Origin: Hydrogenobaculum sp. Y04AAS1
GTDB lineage: Bacteria; Aquificota; Aquificia; Aquificales; Aquificaceae
Direction: 5' to 3'
NCBI RefSeq assembly: GCF_000020785.1
Contig: NC_011126.1
Location: 372,001 to 436,000 of the forward strand
Length of the DNA stretch: 64,000 bases
Shown piece by piece: positions 2,871 to 61,558 of this stretch. Made by a program: the position numbers and the translations under genes. Numbering within the stretch: the stretch's first letter is position 1; each line of letters starts with the position of its first letter. The notes beneath the pieces were generated by a model. That model had not been told where the DNA came from. It made no database searches and was given only the letters and a program-made list of their open reading frames with translations.

Positions 2871-3536
2871 TCAAAAAACCTTTGGCATCTGGCCTTTTAT
2901 AAAAATTTCATTCTCTGAGGTATAACAATCAAAACAAAGTATGTCTAAACCCATTTCTTTGGCTTGTTTTAGAGCTTCTGAGAAGTTTGGATCTGTTTCT
3001 TCGTTTGGTTTGAAGGCTTTTGCATCTGGTCTTTGTACCACAAACACTATCATAGGTTTATATTCTTTTGTGATGTGTATATTTTTTAAAAGCTCAATAT
3101 GTTTTGTGCCACGCTCTGATGGCGCATCTGGAAACATGGCTATTTCATCTTTTACAAGGTTTACAGACTTTGTTTCTATGAGAACCTCGTTGTTTATTAG
3201 TATATCAAACTTATGATTATCACCATATTTTGGTTCTAGTTTTAGGCTTTTAATATCAAACAAATTCTCTTTTTTTATAAAATCCAAAAACAATTTAGGA
3301 GCCAGCAAAGAGTCGATATAAACCCAATGTCCGTGTTTGTTCACAGCCTTTAAATGCCAGTTGTATTTGCCACCTTCTTTTTTCTCCAAAAGACCCTTTG
3401 CTCCTTTTACCAAAAGCTCTGGAAGTCTTCCAGTGTTTCTAATATGAACAAGAATTTCTTTGTTGTCAACGATAACTTTTGCTACAAACCTGTTTAGTCT
3501 TTCTAAGACTATGCACTCTTTGAGGTCAAATTGCAT
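2871..3536 (-). CDS. sfsA: SfsA family protein (sugar fermentation stimulation protein homologue)
   Basis: 221 residues, the normal SfsA length. The N-terminal part (about 1-80) is the OB-like region with HIRNTGRLPELL; the C-terminal part has a PD-(D/E)XK-like core with KFDILINNEVLIETKSVNL, followed by FPDAPSERGTKHIELL, a family hallmark. In E. coli SfsA was reported to bind DNA and affect maltose metabolism; its biochemical role is unsettled, and the nuclease-like core suggests a nucleic-acid function. Its ATG (3536) lies inside the end of the upstream FliK-like frame (11 bp overlap), so the two are cotranscribed. Confidence 0.85.
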   Translation of the reverse strand: MQFDLKECIVLERLNRFVAKVIVDNKEILVHIRNTGRLPELLVKGAKGLLEKKEGGKYNWHLKAVNKHGHWVYIDSLLAPKLFLDFIKKENLFDIKSLKLEPKYGDNHKFDILINNEVLIETKSVNLVKDEIAMFPDAPSERGTKHIELLKNIHITKEYKPMIVFVVQRPDAKAFKPNEETDPNFSEALKQAKEMGLDILCFDCYTSENEIFIKGQMPKVF

Positions 3537-5571
3537 TTATAAATTCAAAGTCGCTTTCTTCAGAGCTTTGTTTTTTGTAATCTTCTTTATCGTCTTTGCC
3601 TTGTTCTTTGTCTTGCGAAAATCCCATTTGAGATTCTATGGTGGTGCCATTGATGGTTATATTTTCTACGCTAAAACCAAGGTTTTGTAGATTTTTAAGC
3701 AAATCTTTTATTTGAGAATCTTTGTATACAAGCTCTGTGTTTGTATTTATTGCTATAGATAAATTGTTGGCGTTAAATTTTATCTGAAGATCCGTCCCAT
3801 CGTCAAGTTGGATAGATACATTTTTCATCAAAACTGGATTTTTGGTTTCTTTCAATACAGTTTTTTCTACTTCTTTGAAAATTTTCTCAGTGTTTATACT
3901 GTTTGTTGTATTCTGTTGATTTGTTTGTATATTTTGCTGGTAGTTCGTGCTAAACCCTTCATTGTTGTCTTTGTTGTCTTTTTGTTTATCGTTTGTATTA
4001 AAAGCCTGAAAATCAAGACTTTCTTTCATAATATCTTTTATAGGGCTTGTAAAATCGTGAAGATTGTTTAAGCTTGTTTTCGGAAGTAGCTCTTTATCTA
4101 AATTTAAAGCGCTGACATTTTTTGCTATGTAATCTTTTATGTTTTTTTCATTTTCTTTATAATATGCTACGTTGGTTTCTTTAGGTGGTTGAATTTCATC
4201 TTTTTTTGTAAAGAGTTCTTGTTCTTCTACGTTTTTATAATAGCTTTTATTATCGGAAGTCTTAGTTTCTTCGTTAAGTGTAGTAAGGTTGTTGTCTTTA
4301 ATAGAAGCTATGTCTATTTGGTTGTTTTTTAATAGATCGTCTTTGCTAACCGACATATCTTTATCAGTTGGGGTGTTTTTGTTGTTGTCTGTGGTATCCT
4401 TATAAGATGTGATATCGTTTTTAATAGTGGTAGACTCGTTAGCTATATCAGAGCTGTATGGCGTGGTAGACTTATTAATTGTAGAAAACTCATTGTTTGT
4501 TTGGTTGGTATTAATTTCTTGCACCTGGTTTTTTGTATTTTCAGCATAAGTTTCTAATTGTTCATATTCTTTTATGGCTTGGTGGGGTTGGTTTGTATTG
4601 TTATTTATTTCTATATTTATCTCAACATTTTCAAATTTGTAAGTTATATTTTTAGTATCATCTAATTGTTCTGTTTTGGTTTGTTGATTTTCTAATTGTT
4701 TGTCAGTGTTTACCTGTGTGTCTTTGGATATGATTTTATCTGATGGTATATCGCTTTCTTCTAAAGTTTTTATATTGTTGGGTACATATACATTTATTTT
4801 GATATCTTCAAGTGGTTTGGTTTGGAGCGATAGGTTATTTAAGTTTGGTTTTTGGGCTTTTAGAGAGATTAACGTTTCTGATGTGTTTTCTTTTTCTAGT
4901 ATTAAGCTAAAAGATAAAGAGGATATATGAGATGATATATCTTTTTGTGAGAGTATGTGTTTGTCAAGGTTTGATAATATAGAATCTAAGAAGTTTGAGG
5001 CGTTTTTTGAAGTTGTGATAATTTCTTCGCGTATTGATATGGATAGGAGAAATGTTTCGTTTGATTTATGATTTTGTATATTTTTTATGATATTTTCTAT
5101 CGAGTTTGTATCAAAATTTGGGTTTATATCTTTTGAGAGTTTTTCTATGTCTTTTAACAAATTTACTGCAAAATTTTCGGCATTATCATATAATTTTATT
5201 AGAATATCTTCGGTACCTTGGTTTTTGTTTAGAGATGTATTGTTAGATAATGTATTGGTTATATTTTTAAAGAAATTAAAAATATCTTGGAATATGTCAC
5301 TTAAATCTTTTAAGACTTTATCTTTGTCAAGATTATCTTTGTTCAAATGCTTTTTGTTGGCAAGGCTATCCAATATATCTTTAAAATCTGAAGACTGAGG
5401 CAGAACGCTATTAGCTTGTTTCTGAGTTAAGGAAGAGCTAGAGGCACTTATTAGATCTGATAACAGCTTACAGCGCACTGTATTGTTTTGCGTTGTATCT
5501 TCTGGTGTTTTTGGAATTGGTATATCTATTTTGCTTATTAACTTGCCTAAACCTTCCAAAACATTTAGCAT
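3526..5571 (-). CDS. Long Asn/Lys/Thr-rich protein with FliK-like C-terminus
   Basis: 681 residues from the ATG at 5571; the frame extends to 5619 but that region holds the promoter-like box. Most of the protein is hydrophilic, low-complexity and rich in N, K, T, D and Q, like the disordered middle of secreted flagellar hook-length proteins. The C-terminal 120 residues contain a compact block (VSIQLDDGTDLQIKF, ELVYKDSQIKDLLKNLQNLG, VENITING) resembling the FliK/Flg_hook C-terminal domain, which signals the export-specificity switch. No other flagellar gene is in the window, so the assignment rests on composition and this block. A secreted or surface protein of other function is possible. Confidence 0.5.
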   Translation of the reverse strand: MLNVLEGLGKLISKIDIPIPKTPEDTTQNNTVRCKLLSDLISASSSSLTQKQANSVLPQSSDFKDILDSLANKKHLNKDNLDKDKVLKDLSDIFQDIFNFFKNITNTLSNNTSLNKNQGTEDILIKLYDNAENFAVNLLKDIEKLSKDINPNFDTNSIENIIKNIQNHKSNETFLLSISIREEIITTSKNASNFLDSILSNLDKHILSQKDISSHISSLSFSLILEKENTSETLISLKAQKPNLNNLSLQTKPLEDIKINVYVPNNIKTLEESDIPSDKIISKDTQVNTDKQLENQQTKTEQLDDTKNITYKFENVEINIEINNNTNQPHQAIKEYEQLETYAENTKNQVQEINTNQTNNEFSTINKSTTPYSSDIANESTTIKNDITSYKDTTDNNKNTPTDKDMSVSKDDLLKNNQIDIASIKDNNLTTLNEETKTSDNKSYYKNVEEQELFTKKDEIQPPKETNVAYYKENEKNIKDYIAKNVSALNLDKELLPKTSLNNLHDFTSPIKDIMKESLDFQAFNTNDKQKDNKDNNEGFSTNYQQNIQTNQQNTTNSINTEKIFKEVEKTVLKETKNPVLMKNVSIQLDDGTDLQIKFNANNLSIAINTNTELVYKDSQIKDLLKNLQNLGFSVENITINGTTIESQMGFSQDKEQGKDDKEDYKKQSSEESDFEFINAI

Positions 5572-5626
5572 ATCATAAATATAATAATTCAAAAACAATA
5601 GCTTATGATATATAATCATATATATG
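5569..5626. promoter_or_regulatory. Divergent leaderless-type promoter region
   Basis: On the plus strand TATAAT (5611-5616) ends 7 nt before the ATG at 5624. On the minus strand TATATT (5583-5578) ends 6 nt before the ATG at 5571. Neither gene has a Shine-Dalgarno sequence. The geometry places both transcription starts at or next to the start codons. Confidence 0.6.
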
Positions 5627-7327: not shown

Positions 7328-7934
7328 ATTTAGGAAGTTTCCATTTTAACATTATAGCCAACATCCTTATTGAAAAAACCGATATTACACAAAAAGATGC
7401 CGCAAGCGTTATGTTTTTGAAAAACATCGTTGTAATATAAAAAATAACGGCACCTATGATGCTACAACTAGCGTAAAAGTCATCTTTTAAAACAGATGGT
7501 ATCTTTCCAAGAAGTATATCGCTTATGACTCCACCACCTACTCCCGTCAGAGTAGCCAGTATGACAATTCCAAATACGTTTACGCCTGCCTTATAAGCTA
7601 TCATGGCGCCTGTAGTGCTGAAAGCCGATAATCCTACAGCATCTGGTATCAGTATGAGCATCGAGCTTTCAATACCTTCGAACTTGTAAAGAGATATCCC
7701 TATCAAAAGCCCTAAAATGGCAAATATCATATTTTCTTTAGATTTAAAAGCTATTGGAATAGTATTTATTATGACATCTCTTAGTATACCACCCCCAAGG
7801 GCTGTGGTTATAGCTAAAACCGTTATACCAAGAAGATCTAAATCCTCTTTTATGGCTTTTAAAGCACCAGATATCGAAAAGGCTACTATACCAACCAAGT
7901 TTATAAAAGAAAAAACTGACCAAAAGTCAATCAT
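7320..7934 (-). CDS. TRIC/YadS (UPF0126) family membrane protein
   Basis: 204-residue inner-membrane protein with about seven hydrophobic segments arranged as two similar halves. Each half carries the family glycine motif (FSISGALKAIKE with TALGGGILRDVI; FSTTGAMIAYKAG with TGVGGGVISDIL), the duplicated UPF0126 pattern. Prokaryotic TRIC homologues form trimeric cation channels; some relatives have been proposed to move glycine. The ATG at 7934 overlaps the trmFO stop by 8 bp, so the two are cotranscribed although functionally unrelated. Confidence 0.85.
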   Translation of the reverse strand: MIDFWSVFSFINLVGIVAFSISGALKAIKEDLDLLGITVLAITTALGGGILRDVIINTIPIAFKSKENMIFAILGLLIGISLYKFEGIESSMLILIPDAVGLSAFSTTGAMIAYKAGVNVFGIVILATLTGVGGGVISDILLGKIPSVLKDDFYASCSIIGAVIFYITTMFFKNITLAASFCVISVFSIRMLAIMLKWKLPKFK

Positions 7935-9300
7935 ATATCTTGTGATGCTCTATAAACTTTTTCATATCAAAAAGTGCTCTGTAAGCTTTTAATAATTTTT
8001 TATGCTTTTTGTGAACCTCTATATCTGGTAAAAGCCCAAAAACTGGATTCATAGGTTGAAGCTCTCCTTCTTTGGAGCTTATGTAGTCTAAGAGTGCTCC
8101 TAACATGGTGGTTTTTGGTGGTGTTGTAGGTTCTTTGCCTTCTAATTTTAACCATGCGTTTATACCTGCTATAATACCAGTGGCAGCGGAAGCTGAGTAG
8201 CCTTCAACACCGGTTATTTGTCCTGCAAAAAGTATGTTTGGATTTTTTCTTAATTCAAGAGTTGGTTTTAAAAGTTTGTTGGATTGTAAGAATGTGTTTC
8301 TATGCATCGAGCCAAGCCTTGAGAAAACAGCATTTCTAAGGCAAGGTATAAGCCTGAACACTCTTACTTGTTCTTTATAGGTAAGTTTTGTTTGAAATCC
8401 CACCAAAGAAAGGGCTTCTCCTTCTTTTGTTTCTTTTCTTAGCTGTACTATTGCATATACGTCTTTTGATATGTGGTGTTTTAGACCTTTTGGGCTCATT
8501 GGTCCAAAAACAAGTGTTTCATAACCCCTTGATGCTATCTCTTCTATGGGAAGACATCCTTCAAAGTGCACCACTCTTTCAAAATCTTTGGTTGGTACTT
8601 TTTCTGCTTTTAAAAGCTCATTATAAAATATATCGTACTCTTCTTTGGTCATCGTACAGTTAAAATAATCATCTCCTTTGTCATATCTAGAACCCCAAAA
8701 TCCCTTTGAAAAGTCAACGCTTGAAGCTTCTACGATTGGAGCTATCGCATCGTAAAAGTAAAGATAATCATCTGTTATAAGATTCTTTAAGTATTTTGAA
8801 AACTTTTCTGAAGTAAGAGGCCCTGTGGCTACTATGTTTAGCTCGTTTTCATTTAGGCTTTCTACTTCTTCTCTTACAACTTCTATATTTGGATGAGACA
8901 ATATCGTTTTTGTTATAAAATCTGAAAACTCGTTTCTATCTACCGCCAAAGCGCTTCCGGCTTTGACATAAGAGTGTTTTGCAGCTTTTATAACAAGGGA
9001 GTTTAAAAGTTCCATCTCTTTTTTTAGAAGGCCTGCCCCAGTGGTTATTTCAAAACTTCCAAGGGTGTTGCTACAAACAAGCTCTCCAAATTTATCCGTT
9101 TTGTGAGCCTCTGTAGTAGTTATTGGTCTAGTTTGCGTAGCATTTCTTACATCGTGTGTTCCTGTTTTTTCATCTTGCCGAGAAGTAAAATGCGATGTTA
9201 TTGGTCTCATTTCAAACATTCTAACTTTTATACCTTTGTTTGCTAAAAAATAAGCCGCTTCTGAACCAGCAAGCCCTGCTCCTATGACGTTTACTTTCAT
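7927..9300 (-). CDS. trmFO: Methylenetetrahydrofolate--tRNA-(uracil-5-)-methyltransferase TrmFO with 26-residue insertion
   Basis: Folate/FAD-dependent enzyme that makes ribothymidine at U54 of tRNA. The N-terminus NVIGAGLAGSEAAYFLA is the FAD-binding fold; TDKFGELVCSNTLGSFE and GQITGVEGYSASAATG are family signatures. Length is 457. Odd feature: between the conserved FEMRP and TEAHKTDKF, residues 32-57 form an extra 26-residue segment bounded by a repeated R-P-I-T. At DNA level this is a 78-bp in-frame duplication-flanked insertion (see the element at 9119-9207). Homologues run directly from MRP to the H-TDKF motif. The insertion lies next to a conserved active-site region, yet the frame is intact. 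The start fits a TAAAAT box 6 nt upstream. Confidence 0.95.
   Translation of the reverse strand: MKVNVIGAGLAGSEAAYFLANKGIKVRMFEMRPITSHFTSRQDEKTGTHDVRNATQTRPITTTEAHKTDKFGELVCSNTLGSFEITTGAGLLKKEMELLNSLVIKAAKHSYVKAGSALAVDRNEFSDFITKTILSHPNIEVVREEVESLNENELNIVATGPLTSEKFSKYLKNLITDDYLYFYDAIAPIVEASSVDFSKGFWGSRYDKGDDYFNCTMTKEEYDIFYNELLKAEKVPTKDFERVVHFEGCLPIEEIASRGYETLVFGPMSPKGLKHHISKDVYAIVQLRKETKEGEALSLVGFQTKLTYKEQVRVFRLIPCLRNAVFSRLGSMHRNTFLQSNKLLKPTLELRKNPNILFAGQITGVEGYSASAATGIIAGINAWLKLEGKEPTTPPKTTMLGALLDYISSKEGELQPMNPVFGLLPDIEVHKKHKKLLKAYRALFDMKKFIEHHKIYD
9119..9207 (-). mobile_element. Interspersed 67-bp element inserted in frame in trmFO, with 11-bp target duplications
   Basis: GTTATTGGTCT occurs at 9119-9129 and again, identically, at 9197-9207. 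The 67-bp core (9130-9196) starts AGTTTGC, contains GCATTTCTTACATCG, and ends AAAATGCGAT. Similar ends occur in the copies at 30043-30109 and 41153-41218, and the left end also at 44100. Core plus one duplication is 78 bp, exactly 26 codons, so the reading frame is kept. The last residues of the insert (N-A-T-Q-T) correspond in position to C-L-K-H-T of the DinG-like protein. Confidence 0.82.
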
Positions 9301-15464: not shown

Positions 15465-18007
15465 AAAACATACTTTCTTTTTTAGGTTTTTTTATAGTTG
15501 TTGTATTTGTGCTTTTAGGAGTATATGTTTATAGCGTAAGTATTGGGCTTCCGGACGTGAGAGCCTTAGAGAATTGGCATCCACCAGAAGCGTCAATGGT
15601 GTACGACTCAAACGGTAAACTTATAGGTACGATAGGAGCTCAGAATAGGATTTATGTAACAATAGACAAAATACCTAAAATAGTTCAAGATGCTTTTGTT
15701 TCTGCTGAAGATAAGACTTTTTATCACAACATAGGAATAGACCCAACAAGTATAATAAGGGCTTTAATAGTAGATTTAGAAAAGGGAAAGGCTGTAGAAG
15801 GCGGAAGCACTATAACCCAGCAACTGGCGAAAAACCTTTTCCTTACCCCTAAGAAGACAATATCTAGGAAGATAAAAGAAGCAATCCTTGCCATAGAGAT
15901 AACCCATACTTTTCCCAAAAGCAAAATACTTGAAATGTATCTCAACCAGATATATTTGGGGCATGGTGCCTTTGGTGTAGAAGCTGCATCGGAAACTTAC
16001 TTTGGTAAACACGTTTGGCAACTGGGCCTTGACGAAGCTGCTCTTTTGGCTGGGCTTCCTAGGGCTCCTACAAAGTATGATCCATATATAAATCCAAACT
16101 TGGCTCTTCAGAGAAGAAACTACGTTTTGTATAGAATGTATAAAGATGGCTATATTACGAAAGAAGAGTACCTTAAAGCCTCTCAGAAACCTATTGTTTT
16201 AAACAAACATACAAACCCCATCACCAATAGCGATTATTTCGTTAGTTTTTTAAAAGATTATATGTATAGAAATTTTCCCGATCTTATTTATCAAGGTGGA
16301 TTAAAAATTTATACCACTTTAAATGAAACGCTTCAGCAAGCAGCGGAAAATGCTGTTAGAAACCAAATATTGTATATATCTAAACTAGAACATTATCCAG
16401 TTCTACCTTGGTCTATTACCGATACTATAGCAAAATTTAAGGCTCAAAAAATAGATCTTAAGAAATCCAGGTATTATATAGGTTTTGTTAAAAGCATAAA
16501 AAATAATCAGGCAAATATAGATATAAACGGCACAGAGGTCACCGCTAAAATTTTCCCCGGTATAAACGCTGGCGAGTACGTAATGGTAGAACTTTCACGC
16601 CCCACAAGTATGCCACGATCTACAAGTATGCCACGATCTACAAGTATGCCACGATCTACAAGTATGCCACGATCTACAAGTATGCCACGATCTACAAGTA
16701 TGCCACGATCTACAAGTATGCCACGCCCCAATAACGGATTTAATGCAAAGATAATACCGCAGCTTCAATCGGCTTTGGTTAGCATGAACGTACATAATGG
16801 TGCTATATTGGCTTTGGTGGGTGGATACTCTTATCAGCTTTCTTCTTACAATAGAGCAGTTTATGCTTTAAGACAGACTGGTTCTGCTATAAAACCTATA
16901 GTTTACCTATCAGCCTTGATGAAAGGCTATACTCAGATAACCGAGATAGACGCTACGCCTCATGCTTATAAAGATCCATCTGCCCCGGGTGGATTTTGGA
17001 CACCTAGAAATTATGAGGGAGAGAGTTTTACTACAATTACCTTAAGAAAAGCTTTGGCTTACAGCGTTAATACTGCGAGCGTAAATCTTTTGGCTCAGGT
17101 GGGTTTTGATCTACCAATATCTTTAGCAGCAAGGGTGGGTATAAAACTTCCTCCATATTATTCTATGGTGCTTGGTAGTACAAGCGTTACTCCGCTTCAA
17201 CTTACAAACATGTTTCAAGCTTTCGCCAACTTAGGGACTTACTGTGAACCGTATTTTATAACAAAGATAGTAAACTCTCAAAACCAAGTGGTATATACAG
17301 GTCATCCAGTTTGCTACAACGTATTCCCAGCTCCTTACGATAGAGTCTTGATATCTATGTTAGAATATGTGGTAAAAGTTGGGACTGGCTATGCTGCCCA
17401 TGTGTTGGGACCTTATATAGCTGGTAAGACAGGTACTACAAACCATTACGACGATGCTTGGTTTGAGGGCTTTTCCTCTGATGTGGTGACTGGTGTTTGG
17501 ACTGGGTTTGATATAAGAAAAAGAATAGGCTACAATATGGCTGGTGCTGCAGCATCGCTTCCTACTTGGATAAACTATATGAAAGAAGCACTAAGCATAT
17601 ATCCGGAAAAGCCGTTTCCTTTGCCAGATGGGGTAGAGTATGTGGATATAGACCCAAAAACCTACTTAAGGGCTACCCCTTCTTGTCCTGGAGAACCTAT
17701 ACTTTTTGTAAAAGGTACAGCACCAAAAACAACTTGTCAAAACGTTTCCTTGCCGGTTCTTCAAAGTTTAAACCCAAATCAACCGCAAAGCCCCGGAAGT
17801 CCTTTGCAGCCTTTAAACAACACTCCCTCATCATCTCAACAACAGTCGTCTCAAGGCACTATATCACCTACCAAGCCTCCCGCAAACCCTAATTCAAAAA
17901 ATCCAAATGGCGTATTACCTAAAATAATACAAGAGATAAACAAAGAAACTTATCAAATAGATAATGAAACGAAAAATATAAATAAGGAGTTAAACAATGC
18001 TCGCTAA
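15461..18007 (+). CDS. mrcA: Penicillin-binding protein 1A with hexapeptide-repeat insertion
   Basis: Bifunctional peptidoglycan synthase, 848 residues. One N-terminal membrane anchor (about 5-25). Glycosyltransferase-51 domain with catalytic Glu83 (EDKTFY), [15 protein letters not shown] and [18 protein letters not shown]. Transpeptidase domain with Ser475-x-x-Lys478, Ser535-V-N and Lys656-T-G. The extreme C-terminus is Pro/Ser/Gln-rich and probably disordered. Odd feature: residues 382-423, in the linker just before the transpeptidase domain, are seven tandem copies of a hexapeptide T-S-M-P-R-S/P, encoded by an 18-bp DNA repeat also found in intergenic DNA. All catalytic motifs are intact. 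hisF starts within its last 11 bp. Confidence 0.95.
16598..16729 (+). repeat. Seven-copy 18-bp tandem repeat inside the PBP1A gene
   Basis: Core ACAAGTATGCCA starts at 16604, 16622, 16640, 16658, 16676, 16694 and 16712. Spacers between cores are all CGATCT; the array is bounded by CGCCCC on both sides (16598-16603 and 16724-16729). The same core at the same 18-bp pitch, but with varied spacers, lies in noncoding DNA at 21638-21691 and 41106-41141. Confidence 0.95.
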
Positions 18008-21554: not shown

Positions 21555-21726
21555 ATTGTATAAGTTCATACACTATGAATACAGAGTGGATAAGCACGTT
21601 TCAGATACCTGTCTTTTTAAAAGACATTAATCTCACGACAAGTATGCCACGGTTCACAAGTATGCCACGCAATAAAAGTATGCCACGGTCTATGTACTTA
21701 CAATGTATTGAACTTGTACATGTAAG
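21555..21726. repeat. Composite intergenic repeat cluster upstream of the toxin-antitoxin pair
   Basis: This region has no gene. It starts with TATAAGTTCA followed by a degenerate ACACTATGAATAC. A stretch at 21598-21628 (CACGTTTCAGATACC, then CTTTTTAAAAGACA) matches the reverse complement of 44137-44166. Three 18-bp units with core ACAAGTATGCCA lie at 21638-21691. The block closes with CTTACAATGTATTGAACTT, an inverted relative of the opening motif and a near-match to 54773-54795. Confidence 0.75.
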
Positions 21727-21776: not shown

Positions 21777-22001
21777 ATGAAGAATGATTATAAATCTAAG
21801 ACACATAAAAGCTTTTATGCCCCATCAACAAAGAAAGGTATCAAAAGAAAACCTACAAGTATACCACGACCTACAAGTATACCACGATCAGCAAGTATGG
21901 CGCCACGTCCTTCTTTTGAATGGAGGGGCTGTTTATCTGATTTAAAGGATAAGTATACATCTGTGGAGTTACAACATAAGATTTGGGATATTGAATTATA
22001 A
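21777..22001 (+). CDS. Putative antitoxin carrying in-frame repeat units
   Basis: 74 residues. The C-terminal part (PSFEWRGCLSDLKDKYTSVELQHKIW, about 45-70) looks like a small conserved antitoxin domain that would cover the toxin's active site; I do not recognise a named family with confidence. Residues 26-45 are the repeat-derived P-T-S-I-P-R units, in frame, placed in the linker before the conserved part. It precedes the PIN protein by 3 nt and has its own promoter and AGGAG site. Role inferred from the partner gene. Confidence 0.6.
   Translation: MKNDYKSKTHKSFYAPSTKKGIKRKPTSIPRPTSIPRSASMAPRPSFEWRGCLSDLKDKYTSVELQHKIWDIEL
21855..21910 (+). repeat. Three degenerate 18-bp repeat units inside the antitoxin gene
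   Basis: Cores ACAAGTATACCA at 21855-21866 and 21873-21884 and a variant GCAAGTATGGCGCCA at 21891-21905, separated by CGACCT and CGATCA. Same 18-bp pitch as elsewhere; the third unit has a 3-bp insertion, which keeps the reading frame. Confidence 0.85.
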
Positions 22002-29847: not shown

Positions 29848-32040
29848 TTAGTCGCCTCTTTGCTGGCGATAATATATTTTAACTCTTAAGCTTTTAATAA
29901 AATTTATAAACTCTTCATATCTCCATATCCTAGAATCGCATATTATGATGGTGCCTTTGTCTTTTTTGCTTCTTACAAGTCTTCCAAATCCTTGTTTAAA
30001 TTGCAAAAACGCCTTTTTCCTCATATAAATAAAACCATCCATAGTGTGCTTTAAGCATTTTTCTGAGCTACTGTGTGCCATTGCCTGTTCCATAGATCCA
30101 AAATGTGATGTCGTCGCTTTGTTATGTTTTTTGAAATACCTCATCCTATGGTAGTTTATGGGATCTTCAGGAGAGTCAAAAGGAAGCTTTGCCATCAAAA
30201 GCCCCTTATCTCCTTTCAAATCTATACCTGTCCATACAGAATCCACCCCTACCAATACGTTTTTATCTCCATTTTCTACCATTTCTATGGCTTTTCTTAA
30301 GGTTGTTGTATTTTGGAATATAATATCCTCATCTTTTGGTATATATTCCATTTGTTCATAGCTTGTTAAAAGCACCAAAACTTTGCTATAGAATGTTCTT
30401 AAATATCTTAGACTATTTATTAGCTCTTCTTTCCATAAATCTTTATTTTTTGGCACTATATTTTTTATGATAAAACTAACATCTTCATAATTGAATACAT
30501 GCTCTAAAGAGTGATATTCACCGCTTATGCCTGTGGTAAGCTCTATGAGGTCTTTGTCAAGAGTTGCAGATGTTAGTATTACATATTTGTAATTAGATAG
30601 ATCTATAGCATCTCTTGGGAATATTGGAAAAGCCTCTATTTTGTAGTTAAAATCCCCAAGCTTTTTAGAAAATTCCCTACTTACCACAAAACCTATAATA
30701 TCTTTATTTTCTTCATCTTCCATGTATTTTAGAGTGTTGTAAATGTTTGATACGCGGTTTGAGATAGATTTGAATTTTGCTATAAGCCTCATAATTTCAC
30801 GTTCTAACCTATCTGCTGATCCATCTGCAAAATCATCTTGAAGTTCGCTTGTATCTATGCTAAATCTATTTAAAAATTCATTTTCAAATAACAAGGAGCT
30901 TTCCAAAAAAGCCTTAAACTTTCTGCTTATGGTATTTTTGTATTCAAGCCTTTCTTTGACGATGTTTATGACATAATTTTTTATGACGTTTACAGCTTGG
31001 TTTAAAGGTTCATATACCATACTAATTAATGGTTCTACAAAAAAAGGTTTATCCAAAGGTATTGAGCTTGGAGCTTTACCTATGGTAGACTTATTAGTTG
31101 GTTTTTGTTTTTTATTTTCAAAGATACCTTCAAATAAACGTTTAAATAGTGTGCTTAGCATTTCTTGGAACGATGACATGCCATTGACACTCCTTAGCTC
31201 TGAAACACGATTCCATCGCTCTATTTCAAGTATATCAACATTATCAAGCATATTTTTATTATCGTTTGGAAGCATATCTCTTATAGATGCTACAAGTCTC
31301 ATTAGACTGATTACAGAAAATCCAGAAGTAAGGGATTTTACCAAAGCTTCATCAAGTTCATGCGCCTCATCTATTACAAGGATTTTCTCTTCTGTATCGT
31401 CAAAGTTTTTTAAAACCAAAAGGCTATGGTTTATTACCAAAATATCCGCTAGTTTTTCTTTGTCTTTTAGCTTTTTATAGTAAAAACAATCTTTTAGATA
31501 AGGGCAAGATTTTCTATAATTGGAATCACAGTAATTTTCGTCTATATTTATATCAGTCCATACCTCTAAGGGTATGTTGGTAAATTCTATATCTCCGTCC
31601 CATCCTGAGGATTCTATAAGTTCTCTTATAGTATTTGCGAGGCTTACTTTTCCAAATATTGTGGTTTGTTTTAATTCGTTTTCTTTATCGTAAAATCTAT
31701 CAAGACAAAGGTAGTTTGCTTTTCCTTTTAATATAAGATAATTTATACCTTTACCAAAATAGTTTTTTCTTATAGAAGATAGGTGTTCAAGGTCCCTTCT
31801 TAGTTGTTCTTGTAGGATTTTTGTCTTGGTGGATATTATTGCTTGTTTACCATGCTCTATGATAGGCAGTAAATATCCAAAGCTTTTGCCAACTCCAGTG
31901 GGAGCTTCTATTAAAACGACGTTTTGCTCCTCATCATCAAAGTCTTCTTTATTTATACATTCTTCTACTATGCTAAACATTTTCTCTTGGCTTTTTCTTC
32001 TTTCGTAGCCAAGGTTTAACAGCGTTTTGTAAAGTTCCAT
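29848..32040 (-). CDS. dinG: DinG/XPD-type superfamily 2 helicase with in-frame element insertion
   Basis: 730 residues. Motif I EAPTGVGKSFG (about 44-54), motif II DEAH, and helicase C-terminal motif QFKQGFGRLVRSKKD. Four Cys between motifs Ia and II (one in NYLCLDRF, then C-x6-C-x5-C in the YCDSNYRKSCPYLKDC segment) fit the 4Fe-4S domain of this family, which unwinds 5'-3' during repair. Odd feature: residues 641-666, just before the last motifs, are a 26-residue segment with T-S-H-F, aligning in length and sequence ends with the trmFO insertion. ATG 32040 overlaps the aspS stop. Confidence 0.85.
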   Translation of the reverse strand: MELYKTLLNLGYERRKSQEKMFSIVEECINKEDFDDEEQNVVLIEAPTGVGKSFGYLLPIIEHGKQAIISTKTKILQEQLRRDLEHLSSIRKNYFGKGINYLILKGKANYLCLDRFYDKENELKQTTIFGKVSLANTIRELIESSGWDGDIEFTNIPLEVWTDINIDENYCDSNYRKSCPYLKDCFYYKKLKDKEKLADILVINHSLLVLKNFDDTEEKILVIDEAHELDEALVKSLTSGFSVISLMRLVASIRDMLPNDNKNMLDNVDILEIERWNRVSELRSVNGMSSFQEMLSTLFKRLFEGIFENKKQKPTNKSTIGKAPSSIPLDKPFFVEPLISMVYEPLNQAVNVIKNYVINIVKERLEYKNTISRKFKAFLESSLLFENEFLNRFSIDTSELQDDFADGSADRLEREIMRLIAKFKSISNRVSNIYNTLKYMEDEENKDIIGFVVSREFSKKLGDFNYKIEAFPIFPRDAIDLSNYKYVILTSATLDKDLIELTTGISGEYHSLEHVFNYEDVSFIIKNIVPKNKDLWKEELINSLRYLRTFYSKVLVLLTSYEQMEYIPKDEDIIFQNTTTLRKAIEMVENGDKNVLVGVDSVWTGIDLKGDKGLLMAKLPFDSPEDPINYHRMRYFKKHNKATTSHFGSMEQAMAHSSSEKCLKHTMDGFIYMRKKAFLQFKQGFGRLVRSKKDKGTIIICDSRIWRYEEFINFIKSLRVKIYYRQQRGD
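30043..30109 (-). mobile_element. Copy of the 67-bp interspersed element inside the DinG-like gene
   Basis: Begins AGTGTGCTTTAAGCATTT and ends AAAATGTGAT on the plus strand, matching the ends of the elements at 9130-9196 and 41153-41218, with the same core length of 67 bp. Encodes most of residues 641-666 on the minus strand. No 11-bp flanking duplication is recognisable here, so it is probably the oldest copy. Confidence 0.65.
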
Positions 32041-33824
32041 CAAGTGATTTTTATATGCAGTTCTTTAAGTTGCTTATCTGAAACTACATCTGGAGCACCG
32101 GTAAGCAAGCAAGTACCTTTCTGGGTTTTGGGGAAAGCTATAACATCTCTTATAGAGTCAAAACCAAGCATCATAGCCATAAGTCTATCAAAACCAAAGG
32201 CCAGCCCTCCATGTGGTGGTGCTCCGTATTTTAGAGCTTCCAATAAAAATCCAAACTTCATAGCTGCTTCTTCATCCGTTATATTTAAAATCTTAAATAC
32301 AAGCTTCTGTATATCTTGCTTGTGTATTCTTATAGAACCTCCTCCTATCTCAACACCGTTTAGCACAATATCGTAAGCCCTTGCACCAATGTTTTCACCA
32401 ATATTAATTATATCTTCTTTATCGGACTTGTCAACAATATATTTTATCTTATCTAAATCCTCTGTTTTTGGAGATGTGAAAGGATGGTGCATAGCCTCAA
32501 GCCTTCCTTCCTCTTCATTGTATTCAAACATTGGAAAATCCACTACCCATAGAAACGCAAATTTGGATTCATCTATAAGATTTAGCATCTTACCAAGTTG
32601 CAATCTTAAATTTCCAAGTATTTTATATACGTTTTTAGGCTTGTCTGCTGAGAAAAATATCATATCTTGATCTTTGGCCTCAAGCCTTGAAAGCATCGCT
32701 TTTATCTCTTCTTCTGTAAGGAATTTGGCTATGGGGGAGCTAAACTCACCATTTTCAATTTTTCCCCAAGCAAGTCCTTTTGCACCTAATCCTTTTACAT
32801 ATTCTGTAAGATTGTCTATCTCTTTTCTTGATAAAATTTTGTTTATTTTTATAGCTTTTATAATACCTTTTTGCTCTATAGCGCTTTTAAATACGTTGAA
32901 GTTGGTATTTTTGAAGATATCACTAAGGTCTACAAGCTCTAAGCCAAACCTTGTATCTGGTTTATCAGAGCCATATCGTTCCATCGCTTCTTTGTAGGTG
33001 ATTCTTTTAAAGGGTGTACTCAGCTCTATGTCTAAAAGCTCTAAAAATAGTTTAGAAAGAAGTTTTTCTGATATTTCCATGATATCTTGTTCTTCTACGA
33101 ATGACATTTCAAAATCTATCTGGGTAAATTCTGGTTGTCTGTCAGACCTTAGATCTTCATCTCTAAAGCATCTTGCTATTTGAAAGTATCTATCAAAGCC
33201 AGATATCATAAGTATTTGTTTGAAAAGCTGTGGGGATTGAGGAAGAGCATAGAATTTGCCAGGGTGAAGCCTTGATGGCACCAAGAAATCTCTTGCTCCT
33301 TCTGGTGTTGATTTTATTAAAAAAGGTGTCTCTATCTCGTAAAAGCCGTTTTCTTCAAAAAAATCCCTTGTTATCTTAAGGGCTTTACTTCTTGTTTTTA
33401 TAGCTTTTTGAAACTTTGGTCTTCTTAAATCAAGATATCTATATTTTAATCTTAGTTCCTCTGAAATATCTACATTATCATCTATGGGAAACGGCAATGT
33501 CTCCGATGCGTTTAAAAGCTCAATACGCTCTATTAAAAGTTCTACGTTGCCAGATTTTATTTTTGGATTTTCCGTACCGGATGGTCTTCTTCTTACCAAA
33601 CCTTCTACCAATACAACGCTTTCTTCTTTAAAATGCTTTGCTATATCATAAAGTTCTTTATTGCCCGATTCTTCTAAAACCGCCTGAAGTTTACCTTCTT
33701 TATCTCTTAAATCAATAAACAAAACACCGCCGTGATCTCTTATGGAATCTATCCATCCTGCCAATTTAACGTGTTTTCCTATAAAGCTATCGTCTACTAA
33801 GCCTATATATGTGTCTCTTAACAT
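32040..33824 (-). CDS. aspS: Aspartyl-tRNA synthetase (bacterial type)
   Basis: 594 residues. OB anticodon-binding domain first (about 1-105: KLAGWIDSIRDHGGVLFIDLRD), class II catalytic core with motif 2 FQIARCFRDEDLRSDRQPEFTQ (given here for position, residues about 215-236), an inserted GAD domain (about 300-410), and motif 3 GLAFGFDRLMAMMLG. Heads the run to dinG, infC, rpmI and proB. TATAAT lies 6 nt before the ATG. Confidence 0.96.
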   Translation of the reverse strand: MLRDTYIGLVDDSFIGKHVKLAGWIDSIRDHGGVLFIDLRDKEGKLQAVLEESGNKELYDIAKHFKEESVVLVEGLVRRRPSGTENPKIKSGNVELLIERIELLNASETLPFPIDDNVDISEELRLKYRYLDLRRPKFQKAIKTRSKALKITRDFFEENGFYEIETPFLIKSTPEGARDFLVPSRLHPGKFYALPQSPQLFKQILMISGFDRYFQIARCFRDEDLRSDRQPEFTQIDFEMSFVEEQDIMEISEKLLSKLFLELLDIELSTPFKRITYKEAMERYGSDKPDTRFGLELVDLSDIFKNTNFNVFKSAIEQKGIIKAIKINKILSRKEIDNLTEYVKGLGAKGLAWGKIENGEFSSPIAKFLTEEEIKAMLSRLEAKDQDMIFFSADKPKNVYKILGNLRLQLGKMLNLIDESKFAFLWVVDFPMFEYNEEEGRLEAMHHPFTSPKTEDLDKIKYIVDKSDKEDIINIGENIGARAYDIVLNGVEIGGGSIRIHKQDIQKLVFKILNITDEEAAMKFGFLLEALKYGAPPHGGLAFGFDRLMAMMLGFDSIRDVIAFPKTQKGTCLLTGAPDVVSDKQLKELHIKIT

Positions 33825-40973: not shown

Positions 40974-41026
40974 AATTTTTATTTTAGCATATTTTGCTTA
41001 ATAATACTAATAGTGTGTATAAGTTC

Positions 41027-41141
41027 ACTACATCGTGAACACATAAACTGTGGCATACTTGTAAACCATGTTAGACTTGTCTGTTCTTTAGCTCTGAAAT
41101 GCGCTACAAGTATACCACGCTTCACAAGTATGCCACGCCCC
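41027..41141. repeat. Intergenic repeat cluster (TATAAGTTCA motif and 18-bp units)
   Basis: Part of the 480-bp gene-free interval 40974-41453. Starts with TATAAGTTCACTACATCGTG, related to 21562 and 54773. An inverted core TGGCATACTTGT lies at 41051-41062; direct cores ACAAGTATACCA at 41106-41117 and ACAAGTATGCCA at 41124-41135 follow at 18-bp pitch with spacers CGCTTC and CGCCCC. Confidence 0.8.
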
Positions 41142-41229
41142 GATAGCGCTCTAGTGTGCTAAAGGCATTTCTCATAGTTTCTGAGTGACTGTTTTGTTTA
41201 TTAGAATTAAAATGCGATGTTATCGCTCT
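41142..41229. mobile_element. Intergenic copy of the interspersed element with 11-bp direct repeats
   Basis: Flanks GATAGCGCTCT (41142-41152) and GTTATCGCTCT (41219-41229) match at 9 of 11 positions. The 66-bp core starts AGTGTGCTAAAGGCATTTCT and ends AAAATGCGAT. On the minus strand, the core and flank still translate with Y-F-K, A-I-T-S-H-F and H-S-E resembling the DinG segment, but with a stop-prone, decayed frame. It lies directly next to an 18-bp repeat unit. Confidence 0.75.
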
Positions 41230-41360
41230 GTTTAGATTCTTGAAATAATATATCCTTGTTCAGAGAGATATTTTAAAGAATAATAAGTAGAGTAAACCAG
41301 TTTCTACATTTAAAAGGTTATCATATGAAGTTTTGCAAATATTCAACAGGAGATTACATC

Positions 41361-41445
41361 ATGAGATACAAAACTATTGACAAGATTCTAAGAAGGTATT
41401 TGTTCATATAATCTATCTGAACTTATAAAACTACTTTGTGGTATA
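41361..41445 (+). pseudogene. Short gene remnant
   Basis: AGGAG at about 41348 is followed by ATG 41361 and 16 codons (M-R-Y-K-T-I-D-K-I-L-R-R-Y-L-F-I), then TAA. Shifting frame by one base continues as Y-N-L-S-E-L-I-K-L-L-C-G. Probably the start of a decayed small gene, possibly an antitoxin-like protein. Too short to identify. Confidence 0.3.
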
Positions 41446-41453
41446 ATCACAAT

Positions 41454-42990
41454 ATGAAGCTTTTACCAATAGGTATACAAACATTTGAAAAAATAAGAAA
41501 TAGCAACTATTATTATGTAGATAAAACAATGTTTGTTAAAAAATTAGAAAACGGTGGATATTATTTTTTATCCCGCCCAAGAAGGTTTGGAAAATCTCTT
41601 TTTCTTGATACACTAAAAGAAGCATTTTCTGGCAACAAAGAGCTTTTTAAAGGACTTTATCTATACGATAATTGGAATTGGGAGAAAAAGTATCCAGTGA
41701 TAAGGCTTGATTTAAGCCAAGCTTATCCAGATACAGAGGAAAATCTTCAAAAATCTATCAATTCTTTTTTGAGAAAAATATCAAATGAGCATGGAATACC
41801 CTTAGAAGAAGAGATCATAGGCCTAAAATTCCAAGAGCTCATCCAAAAATTATACGAAAAATACAATCAAAAAGTAGTAGTGCTTATAGATGAATACGAT
41901 AAGCCTATTCTTGATGTAATAGAAGATGTAGAAAAGGCAAAGCAAAATAGAGAGATACTAAAAAAGTTTTTTGAGATATTAAAGCCCTCTGACCCATACC
42001 TAAAGCTTGTCTTTCTTACAGGGGTATCAAGGTTTTCTAAGGTATCTATCTTTAGTGGACTGAATCAACTTCAAGATATCACTTTAAATGAAGAGTTTTC
42101 AACTGTATGCGGTTATACCCAATCTGAGCTTGAAAGTGTATTTTCCGATAGACTAAAAGATTTTGATAAAGAGAAGGTAAAACAGTGGTACAACGGTTAT
42201 AGTTGGCTTGGAGAGAGTGTTTACAATCCTTTTGATATACTGCTGTTGTTTGATAAGAAAATTTTTAAACCATACTGGTTTGAGGCAGAAACACCTACAT
42301 TTTTGATAAAGATGATTGTGGAAAATCAATACTACCTACCAGAGCTTGAAAACCTTGAAGTAGGAGAAGAGATTTTATCTAATCTTGATGTAGACAACAT
42401 AATGGTAGAAAATCTTTTGTTTCAATTAGGATATCTTACGATAAAAGAGTTTTTAGAAGAAGATGGAGTGTATATCCTATCTTATCCAAACTTAGAAGTA
42501 AGGAAAAGTTTAAACAACGCCTTTCTTTTTTATTTAGATTTTGGCACTAGTAATATAACAAAAACAGAACTTAATATAAAACAAATTTTCAAATTCTTAA
42601 AGAGAAAAATATAAACAAACTAAAAGATGCTATATACACATTATTTGCCAGCATCTCACATGATCGGTATAGAAAAACGGCATAGACTCCTATGAAGGTT
42701 TTTACGCATCTATTGTATATGCGCTTTTTAACGGAGCAGGGCTAAATGTGATAGCAGAAGACAACACAAACAAAGGTCAGATAGATCTTAGTGTCTTTAA
42801 CCAAGACAGCGTTTATATTATAGAGTTTAAGGTAGTAGAAGACAAAGAAGAGGGTATCGCTTTAAAACAGATAAAAGAGAAAAAATATTATGAAAAGTAT
42901 ATAGGCAAGTACCAAGAGATCTATCTAATAGGTATAGAGTTTAGTAAAAAAGATAAGAACGTTGTGGGCTTTGAGTGGGAAAAGGTATAG
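41454..42990 (+). pseudogene. AAA-ATPase-like / PD-(D/E)XK nuclease gene, copy 1, frameshifted twice
   Basis: Starts KLLPIGIQTFEKIR, with YYVDKTMFVKKL and the Walker-A-like RPRRFGKSLFLDTL, then LIDEYDKPI (Walker B), which is the PF09820 AAA-ATPase_like pattern. The frame breaks near 42598 (TTAAAGAG), stopping at 42614. A second frame gives the missing N-L-K-D-A-I-Y-T-L-F-A-S region, a second one-base loss occurs near 42676, and a third frame (42748-42990) carries the nuclease core GQIDLSVF with YIIEFKVVED (PF08011). Total length is 1537 nt, the same as copy 2. A TATAAT box lies 6 nt before the ATG. Family function is unknown; many bacteria carry decayed families of it. Confidence 0.85.
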
Positions 42991-43066
42991 TATTTCATCT
43001 GAATCGTTTAGATTCCAATATCAGCATAGTCTGCCAAATGCTTTTGATTTGTAGTAAAATAAATCT

Positions 43067-44013
43067 ATGGATATACAACCACATGATTCATTTTTTAAGC
43101 AGATATTTTCTGATCCTAGGAGAGTAAAGACGCTTCTTGATATCTTTGCTAAAGATGTATCTAAAAGTATAAGCTCTATAAGCTTAGTAAATACAGAAAA
43201 GTTTTCTTCAAAATCTCAAAAGTTTATGCTTGATTTACTTTTTAGCTGCAAGGTAAAAGATCAAGATGCTTATTAAGGATTGTACTTGAACACAAATCTT
43301 ATCTTGATAAAGAACTACCTATTCAGCTTTCTTACTATAACAGTGCTATTTGGGAAGAGACTATAAAAGAAAAAGAGTATTACCCTCCTATTATCAATAT
43401 TGTTTTTTACCATGGAAAAGGATATTGGAACATACCTACATCTTTACCAGTATTAGAAGACCAGAACTTAGAAAAATATGTATCTAAGCTAAATTATATA
43501 CTTATAGATCTAAACAAAGTATCAGACAATGAGCTAATAAATGAAGCCTACATAGATTTTTGCTTTACATCTGCTGTTATTGCAATGAAGTATGTACATG
43601 ACAACATAGAAAAGATTAAAGCTGTGTTTAGACCACTGGTGGAATACGTTCAAATTCATGAAGATGAAGAAGGATATCATTGTTTATTTTTCTCATTTAA
43701 CTATATTTCATATGTGAAAGGTGATACCAAAGAGGCAGAAAATGCCTTGAAAGAACTTATAGGAGGTGATAAGAAAGCTATGACACTGATAGAAAAATGG
43801 ATTATGGAAGGATTAGAAAAAGGTAAACAAGAAGGACTACAAGAAGGATTAATTAAAGCCAAAAAAGATGACATTAAGAGTGCCATTCTCATCAAGTTTG
43901 GAGTACTGCCAAAAGAGCTTGAAGAGAAGATAGAAAGCACAAATGATATGCAGATCTTAGATGATATGTTTAAAAAGGTTATACTAGCTGGTAAGATTGA
44001 AGAGATTTTGTGA
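43067..44013 (+). pseudogene. Rpn-family recombination-promoting nuclease/putative transposase, one frameshift
   Basis: The first frame (43067-43276) starts with PHDSFFKQIFSDPRRVKTLL and LDLLFSCKVKD, the PD-(D/E)XK core start of the Rpn/PDDEXK_2 family. It stops at TTATTAAGG; restoring one T gives A-Y-L-R-I-V-L-E-H-K-S-Y, the catalytic E-x-K region, and continues through QLSYYNSAIWEE and VFYHGKGYW to the C-terminal ALKELIGG and GKQEGLQEGLIKAK helix ending at 44013. Length 947 nt equals a 948-nt gene minus one base. TAAAAT lies 6 nt before the ATG. Rpn proteins promote RecA-independent recombination in E. coli. Confidence 0.85.
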
Positions 44014-44099
44014 GCTAAAAACCCACTCCCATCGACTAAGCTTTTTATATAATCTAATTTAAGTTTTTGATTTTTGAGAGGAAAGAAGCAAGTTTGTAT

Positions 44100-44170
44100 A
44101 GTGTGCTGTGAGCATTTCTTACATCGTATAATAGGTGCCTTTTAAGAAGACGGGTATTTGAAACGTGGTT
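44100..44170. repeat. Partial or variant copy of the interspersed element
   Basis: Left end AGTGTGCTGTGAGCATTTCT followed by TACATCGT matches the trmFO copy. The right part (CTTTTAAGAAGACGGG, then TATTTGAAACGTGG) instead matches the inverted sequence at 21598-21628. Suggests a second subfamily or a recombined copy. The interval 44014-44266 holds nothing else I recognise. Confidence 0.6.
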
Positions 44171-44266
44171 AGAGCACTCTATTCATATCTATCTAAACCC
44201 ATACACCATTATATTTTATGCATTTTATTATGGAAAGCTTTTATACAAATTTTATATTTTCTAAGC

Positions 44267-60427: not shown

Positions 60428-61558
60428 ATGAACAACGTTTTAATGGGGATTGCAAAAGCTGGTATAAAAGAATCTGGAAAAGAAGATTTGCTTGTGATAA
60501 AGCTTCCCTTTGCCTGCGAATCTCACTTTGTATTTACCACAAATCATTTTGCAGCAGCACCGGTGCTATATTCTAAGAACATGCTTGAGGCTTCTGGTAA
60601 CAGGGTGAGCGCTATGGTTATAAACAGTGGAAATGCCAATTGCGGTACTGGTATAGAGGGTTATGAACATGCAAAGATGATGGGAGAAAAAGTAGCAGAG
60701 CTTTTTGATATACCAAAAGAAGAGGTACTTGTCTTTTCTACAGGTATTATAGGAAAACCACTTCCCATAATAAATGTATTAGAAGGTATAGAATATGCTG
60801 TAAATCATTTAGAGGTTTTAGACCTTGAAATGGCTGCTAAGACAATATCCACCACCGATAGATTTCCAAAGTACGCTTTTTGCAAAAAAGATGACTATGA
60901 GGCTTTTTGTTTTGGTAAAGGAGCCGGTATGATTCATCCTGATATGGCTACCATGCTTGCTTTTTGTTTTGCAAATTCAAAACTTATGCCAAGAAAACAT
61001 TTTGACGATATTTTAGAGAAAACGTTTAACTCTATAGATGTAGATGGGTGTCAAAGTACCAACGATTCTTTTGGCGTTATATCTTACGGAGACTTAGATT
61101 ATTCTAACGATGTATACAGCTGTGTATACAAAGTTTGCAAAGAAGTGTCTGATATGATAGTAAAGGACGGGGAAGGAGCTACCAAGATAATAACTATAGA
61201 AGTTAAACACGCTAGTATTAAAACAAAAGCAAAAGTTATAGCAAACGCTGTAGCCACTTCTAACCTTGTAAAAACTGCAATGTTTGGAGCCGACCCCAAT
61301 TGGGGGCGTATATTGGCTGCCGCTGGTTCTACTGTCTTTCCTATAGATCCACTGAAAATAAGTTTATCTATAATGGGTACCAAAGTATACGACAAAGAGC
61401 CTCTTCATTTTAACGAAGAGAAACTAAGTCAAAAGATGAGAGAATCTCAAGAAGTAGAGATTGTTTTGGATTTGAAGGAGGGTAAAGAACATTTTAGCTA
61501 TAGATTTTCTGATCTTGGATACGAATATATTAAGATAAACGCTGAATATACTACTTAG
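60428..61558 (+). CDS. argJ: Glutamate N-acetyltransferase / amino-acid acetyltransferase ArgJ
   Basis: 376 residues. Transfers acetyl from N-acetylornithine to glutamate in arginine synthesis. Autocleavage site in KGAGMIHPDMATMLAF (Thr nucleophile of the ATM motif), N-terminal VINSGNANCGTG, C-terminal GADPNWGRILAAAG. Whether it is mono- or bifunctional cannot be told. 3 nt after der; overlaps the convergent def gene by 4 bp. Confidence 0.95.
   Translation: MNNVLMGIAKAGIKESGKEDLLVIKLPFACESHFVFTTNHFAAAPVLYSKNMLEASGNRVSAMVINSGNANCGTGIEGYEHAKMMGEKVAELFDIPKEEVLVFSTGIIGKPLPIINVLEGIEYAVNHLEVLDLEMAAKTISTTDRFPKYAFCKKDDYEAFCFGKGAGMIHPDMATMLAFCFANSKLMPRKHFDDILEKTFNSIDVDGCQSTNDSFGVISYGDLDYSNDVYSCVYKVCKEVSDMIVKDGEGATKIITIEVKHASIKTKAKVIANAVATSNLVKTAMFGADPNWGRILAAAGSTVFPIDPLKISLSIMGTKVYDKEPLHFNEEKLSQKMRESQEVEIVLDLKEGKEHFSYRFSDLGYEYIKINAEYTT

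Follow-up and report, generated by a model that had tools for sequence, protein, structure and literature searches.

A dispersed 78-bp hairpin-forming repeat in Hydrogenobaculum protein genes and tmRNA that probably enters mostly at TA

The window analyzed here (64,000 nucleotides) belongs to the genome of Hydrogenobaculum sp. Y04AAS1 (G000; 1,559,514 bp, one contig). At 41142 to 41229, the initial annotation described a 66-bp core (41153-41218, starting with AGTGTGC and ending with ATGCGAT) between two degenerate 11-bp direct repeats, which were taken for a target duplication. The two 11-mers, GATAGCGCTCT at 41142-41152 and GTTATCGCTCT at 41219-41229, are indeed present and identical at 9 of 11 positions, and the trmFO copy, described there as having the same termini, has a 67-bp core (AGTTTGC..ATGCGAT). 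However, the 11-mers do not constitute a target duplication: two tandem units abut here, each 11-mer is the 3' end of one of them, and the flanks resemble each other as parts of the element. In the 41153 unit, the right 11-mer forms the 3' end, where it belongs to the last of three hairpins (hairpin C, GCGAT gtt ATCGC). In most units, NNTANCGCTCT forms the conserved 3' end, and the resemblance of the two 11-mers is above chance for this reason.

The upstream unit has been enlarged by insertions (Table 1), and its terminal hairpin, GCGCT..GATAGCGC, is split by two 18-bp repeats. Hairpin C of this unit reads GCGCT - ACAAGTATACCACGCTTC ACAAGTATGCCACGCCCC - GAT - AGCGC - TCT, and it is because the two 18-bp repeats were inserted beside the 3-nt loop that GATAGCGCTCT seemed to be a free-standing flank. 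The covariance model R1 (see below), run with filters off, also matched this unit at 41077-41148 (E 0.001 in 500 bp). At its window site, the 41153 unit did not arrive alone; its counterpart in the congener G003 (G003:599167) also lies directly behind another, different unit. The pair lies at the left edge of a segment of about 3.2 kb. Between the element copies of this segment (41460-44013), an AAA-ATPase_like/PDDEXK gene and a broken Rpn/Transposase_31 gene were found, both from families that are multi-copy in G000.

Table 1. Units of the repeat and associated features in the window
Feature	Position	Strand	Basis
Copy in frame in 697-aa ORF (3526-5619, -)	5402..5479	-	R1
trmFO copy, in frame; gene on - strand, 7927-9300	9130..9207	+	R1; GIDA Pfam match
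Copy in frame in DinG-like helicase gene (- strand, about 29851-32064)	30043..30120	+	R1; site also filled in G003
Second copy in the same DinG-like helicase gene	31148..31222	+	R1; site empty in G003 and G001, TA duplicated
Segment missing at the matching place in G003, G001 and G004, ~3.2 kb, approximate extent	40992..44213	.	Genome comparison
Upstream tandem unit, 141 nt, enlarged by insertions, 3' end = GATAGCGCTCT	41012..41152	+	R1 match G000:413011-413153; sequence
Terminal hairpin of upstream unit, GCGCT (41101-41105) pairs with AGCGC (41145-41149)	41101..41149	+	Direct reading
Two 18-bp repeats (ACAAGTATRCCACG type) in the loop of the upstream-unit hairpin	41106..41141	+	Sequence
Unit in question, 77 nt, AGTGTGC..GCGATGTTATCGCTCT	41153..41229	+	R1, 78 bits; 99% identical unit with same right flank at G003:599167
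Copy at right edge of the ~3.2-kb segment missing from G003	44100..44180	+	R1

A DNA search of G000 with the element returned 50 partial matches, several of which overlapped in head-to-tail order at a periodicity of about 78 bp, and 24 full units could be aligned cleanly as TAGTGTGC-TNNA-GCATTTCT ... GAAATGCGAT-NNN-ATCGCTCTA. The modal unit has 78 bp (TA + GTGTGC..CGCTC) and is a quasi-palindrome with short imperfect terminal inverted repeats (TAGTGTGC / GCGCTCTA) and three adjacent hairpins, A (TGCY..RGCA), B (ATTT..AAAT and beyond) and C (GCGAT NNN ATCGC); the GCGCTgatAGCGC hairpin is uninterrupted in many units. R1, a covariance model of the unit, was searched in G000, in the congeners G001 to G004 and in 112 Aquificales genomes. 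About 70 copies were found in G000 and 56 in G003, while G001, G002 and G004 gave no match, and neither did any of the 110 other Aquificales genomes (2 of 112 positive; the 110 include these three congeners). Two units scored with R1 on both strands. The earlier proposal of a dispersed, non-autonomous mobile repeat is supported, and a short palindromic repeat dispersed within one genome is also what characterizes elements of the Rickettsia palindromic element (RPE) kind. Rfam reported one tRNA and nothing else in the window. In genome and viral collections, the pattern AGTGTGCN{2,6}GCATTTCT gave scattered single matches only, at chance level; a stricter pattern hit one phage locus three times among viral contigs, at 26.7 bits to the model, which was judged to be chance. 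We found no description of such an element in Aquificota in the open-access literature, and the family is apparently new for this phylum.

Copies lie in frame within ORFs in 19 of the 48 array clusters of G000. These ORFs (140 to 1039 aa) are open throughout, and the element is read in both orientations and in at least four frames. A length of exactly 78 nt was seen for 19 of 30 units in ORFs vs 25 of 96 outside. By Pfam, the host proteins comprise IleS, ribonucleotide reductase, topoisomerase, TrmFO and a DinG-like helicase, and copies were also located in a TnpB-like protein and, twice each, in an EAL protein and an IS481-like transposase. Among the hosts, IleS, ribonucleotide reductase (four copies) and the topoisomerase are essential enzymes that carry selfish inserts of about 26 codons. 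Such copies may persist in genes because 78 bp make a whole number of codons (26) and the unit is often open in at least one of its six frames. The four copies in ribonucleotide reductase are in the large subunit gene (G000:1215036-1218053, minus strand); in G003, a two-unit array occupies a further place in this gene, and one of the sites filled in both genomes holds differing units. The two units in the IS481-like (rve) transposase gene (G000:622801-623823, minus strand) are in frame. In G003, a repeated segment of about 1.8 kb (157292-159074 and 1304558-1306344) with an ORF of about 550 aa, TnpB-like by eye, holds a unit at either location, each time in the same context.

RNA genes are also affected. 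Exactly one 78-nt unit is present in the tmRNA gene of G000 (60554-60633, minus strand), and the four congeners are without it. A "78-nt hairpin-like insertion" in Hydrogenobaculum tmRNA has been reported as an isolated oddity, given without explanation, and the repeat family goes unmentioned in the accessible part of that report (PMC4227106). The published insertion is one copy of the 78-bp element, which explains this odd feature of the tmRNA. Insertion into an RNA gene is another property of RPE-like elements.

To compare filled and empty sites, the G000 stretches around matches were set against G003, which is about 95% identical, and against the element-free G001, G002 and G004. Four insertions were clean: G000:403147, in the window's helicase gene (AAA-TA-[GTGTGC..CGCTC]-TA-TT), 1216526, in ribonucleotide reductase (CTTA..TAGG), 1188365 (CTATA..TATATGG) and, with two units, G003:1215045 (CTATA..TATCTT). 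Each gained whole units and one extra TA and had no 11-bp repeat, which speaks against the 11-bp staggered cut that had been proposed as the mechanism; formally, the TA gain is equivalent to insertion of a 78-bp unit between T and A. In three further insertions, the junctions were 1 to 3 nt off the TA rule (tmRNA, gaining 78 nt; 151440, gaining 81; G003:1194469, gaining 75). Two sites were exceptions. At G000:29804-30180, a five-unit array begins right after the TGA stop codon of a gene; about 18 bp from the end of this gene recur beyond the array, whose last unit lacks its 3' end. At trmFO, GTTATTGGTCT (9119-9129) is repeated exactly at 9197-9207 with no TA, and the site is empty, with a single GTTATTGGTCT, in G003, G001, G004 and G002. 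Of the two 11-bp duplications claimed initially, the one in trmFO thus stands, while that at 41142-41229 does not. Nine of the 11 positions of the trmFO target are shared with the 3' end of the unit, and the simplest reading of this likeness is that similarity to the unit end guided the entry. With two complete, closely related genomes that have filled and empty sites, three element-free congeners and base-exact junctions, movement of the element is testable.

In the four clean cases, a duplicated TA target was found along with terminal inverted repeats, the combination expected of MITEs driven by IS630/Tc1 transposases. TA-flanked MITEs (Correia/NEMIS, ERIC, RUP) likewise have terminal inverted repeats and 5'-TA-3' ends and are non-autonomous (PMC2229807). 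Unlike these, the Hydrogenobaculum units form head-to-tail arrays, and an IS630-type (DDE_3) transposase was found in none of the five congener genomes, including G000 and G003. Nor was any Y1 transposase (Y1_Tnp; REP/RAYT, IS200 type) or serine recombinase found in G000 or G003. Since the element is non-autonomous, its movement must depend on a factor acting in trans, and the mobilizing enzyme has been lost, is of another type or lies outside the families searched (DDE_3, Y1, serine recombinase). Neither of the two repeated nuclease gene families of the 3.2-kb segment is supported as a driver: AAA-ATPase_like (PF09820) is also present in the element-free congeners, and Rpn/Transposase_31 (PF04754), which occurs in G000, G003, G002 and G004 and not in G001, does not track the element. 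The feature at 41012-41229 is best described, in our judgment, as two abutting copies of a non-autonomous, mobile, hairpin-forming palindromic repeat of about 78 bp that probably enters mostly at TA through an enzyme acting in trans. New copies would be inserted by this enzyme mostly at a TA dinucleotide, leaving one extra TA.

All 36 abutting pairs had the same orientation and none the opposite, and 13 further pairs within 400 bp were also in the same orientation. The identity of neighbors averaged 76% vs 70% for random units, with a few at 96 to 100%, and the numbers of units in arrays varied between G000 and G003. At a gene site shared by the two genomes, the units may be less alike than their flanks, as at the ribonucleotide reductase site (80%, flanks about 91 to 95%). 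Local duplication, exchange and repeated entry at one spot are each possible sources of such arrays. Under entry in trans at TA, they would grow head to tail because the end of each unit, CGCTC-TA, would offer a preferred or homologous site for the next entry; local duplication may account for part of the growth, but most neighbors are diverged units. An alternative is cassette-like site-specific recombination, in which an excised (circular) unit recombines at a unit-end/TA site, comparable to integron cassettes at attC, producing head-to-tail arrays and unit swapping at fixed places. The uniform orientation of the 36 pairs, neighbors barely more alike than random units and the differing units at the shared ribonucleotide reductase site would all agree with this. 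However, the searches of G000 and G003 gave no serine recombinase, no attC-like core site was seen by eye, and the same arrays could result from unequal homologous exchange combined with divergence; we regard this alternative as unlikely. Slightly more doubtful still is its fuller form, a miniature cassette system in which 78-bp units would be excised and re-inserted head to tail at unit-end/TA by an undescribed enzyme, units being swapped even in ribonucleotide reductase and other housekeeping genes with frame and function kept.

The arrays also account for the pattern from which the initial annotation set out. Its model was that of a 66/67-bp element mobilized by a transposase whose cuts, staggered by 11 bp, leave 11-bp target duplications. 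Among the 36 units directly behind another unit, the left and right 11-mers usually agreed at 7 to 11 positions, whereas at the 90 outer array boundaries of G000 and G003 the agreement was about that of shuffled pairs. There was no excess of 11-bp flanking duplications over shuffles at these boundaries except in three cases, namely trmFO and two arrays with unit-like left 11-mers (TAAACCACTCT, GTTACCGCTCT). With agreement inside arrays and chance level at their boundaries, the pattern is the signature of tandem units. Moreover, hairpin C spans the core and the "11-mer" with compensatory changes; its right arm lies inside the "11-mer", which therefore belongs to the unit, and the clean insertions carry the full unit, "11-mer" included, with TA alone duplicated. 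The exact duplication in trmFO, single in the congeners, is what such a transposase would leave, but it is the only 11-bp host repeat. As a general rule, 11-bp target duplication is rejected by the empty sites and the boundary statistics, and we consider the model very improbable.

The pairing itself was assessed across 96 distinct copies. In the terminal inverted repeats and the three hairpins together, 77.6% of cells were paired vs 29 to 43% in slid versions, and double changes with pairing kept were seen in 176 cells vs 33 to 71 in slid and 97 in shuffled versions. The imperfect terminal inverted repeats were paired in 98% of cells, and hairpin C occurred as CGAT/ATCG, CGCT/AGCG, CGGT/ACCG, CGTC/GCCG, CGTT/AACG and others. 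Compensatory changes in hairpins A and C, together with the very stable fold of the tmRNA copy in the tmRNA sense (-30.7 kcal/mol, z -4.8), could indicate that the element is retained for a host role, as a structured RNA with a function or as a regulatory element, and is not selfish DNA. However, single copies mostly folded no better than shuffles, and in hairpin C there were 7 G-U and 9 A-C cases; G-U was not favored over A-C, hence the pairing does not have to occur in RNA. The element is also absent from three congeners and polymorphic between G000 and G003, and within coding regions it is found in either orientation and read in at least four frames, which makes a host role a very remote prospect. 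A plain tandem repeat (minisatellite) spread by slippage and homologous recombination, with no transposition, would fit the few arrays with identical or near-identical neighbors and the differing unit numbers, but it is refuted for the dispersed copies by single units at many unrelated sites, precise ends, sites empty in congeners and the tmRNA insertion, and can hardly be correct.

As a mobile palindromic repeat, the family is closest in kind to the RPEs, a likeness of description. Both are short, palindromic and non-autonomous, occur in frame in unrelated housekeeping proteins and in tmRNA, and have no known transposase; RPEs have been found in RNase P RNA as well (PMC2229807, PMC10969869). 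RPEs have 105 to 150 bp and reside in obligate intracellular alphaproteobacteria, whereas the unit here has 78 bp and resides in a thermophile of another phylum. It also differs from them in its head-to-tail arrays of diverged units and in the filled and empty sites that yield TA; for RPEs, the target duplication is listed as "?" (PMC2229807). In-frame palindromic insertions are also known from Wolbachia (WPE), as Methanocaldococcus jannaschii palindromes and as PARCELs, some of the latter in tandem (PMC2996958), all in other taxa. PARCELs encode a conserved amphipathic domain (PMC2996958), in contrast to an element read in at least four frames. Rickettsia, Wolbachia and one archaeon are the main known sources of protein-coding palindromic repeats; the present family is from a free-living thermophile of the Aquificota.

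A second repeat, 18 bp (6 codons) long and of the CAAGTATGCCACG type, was found in the window at 16603-16736, 21638-21670, 21855-21886 and 41106-41141. In the 563 kb of G000 examined, it had 77 core matches, often in tandem at 18-bp spacing; 11 were inside 78-bp units, often in their loops, and 15 were within 150 bp of one.
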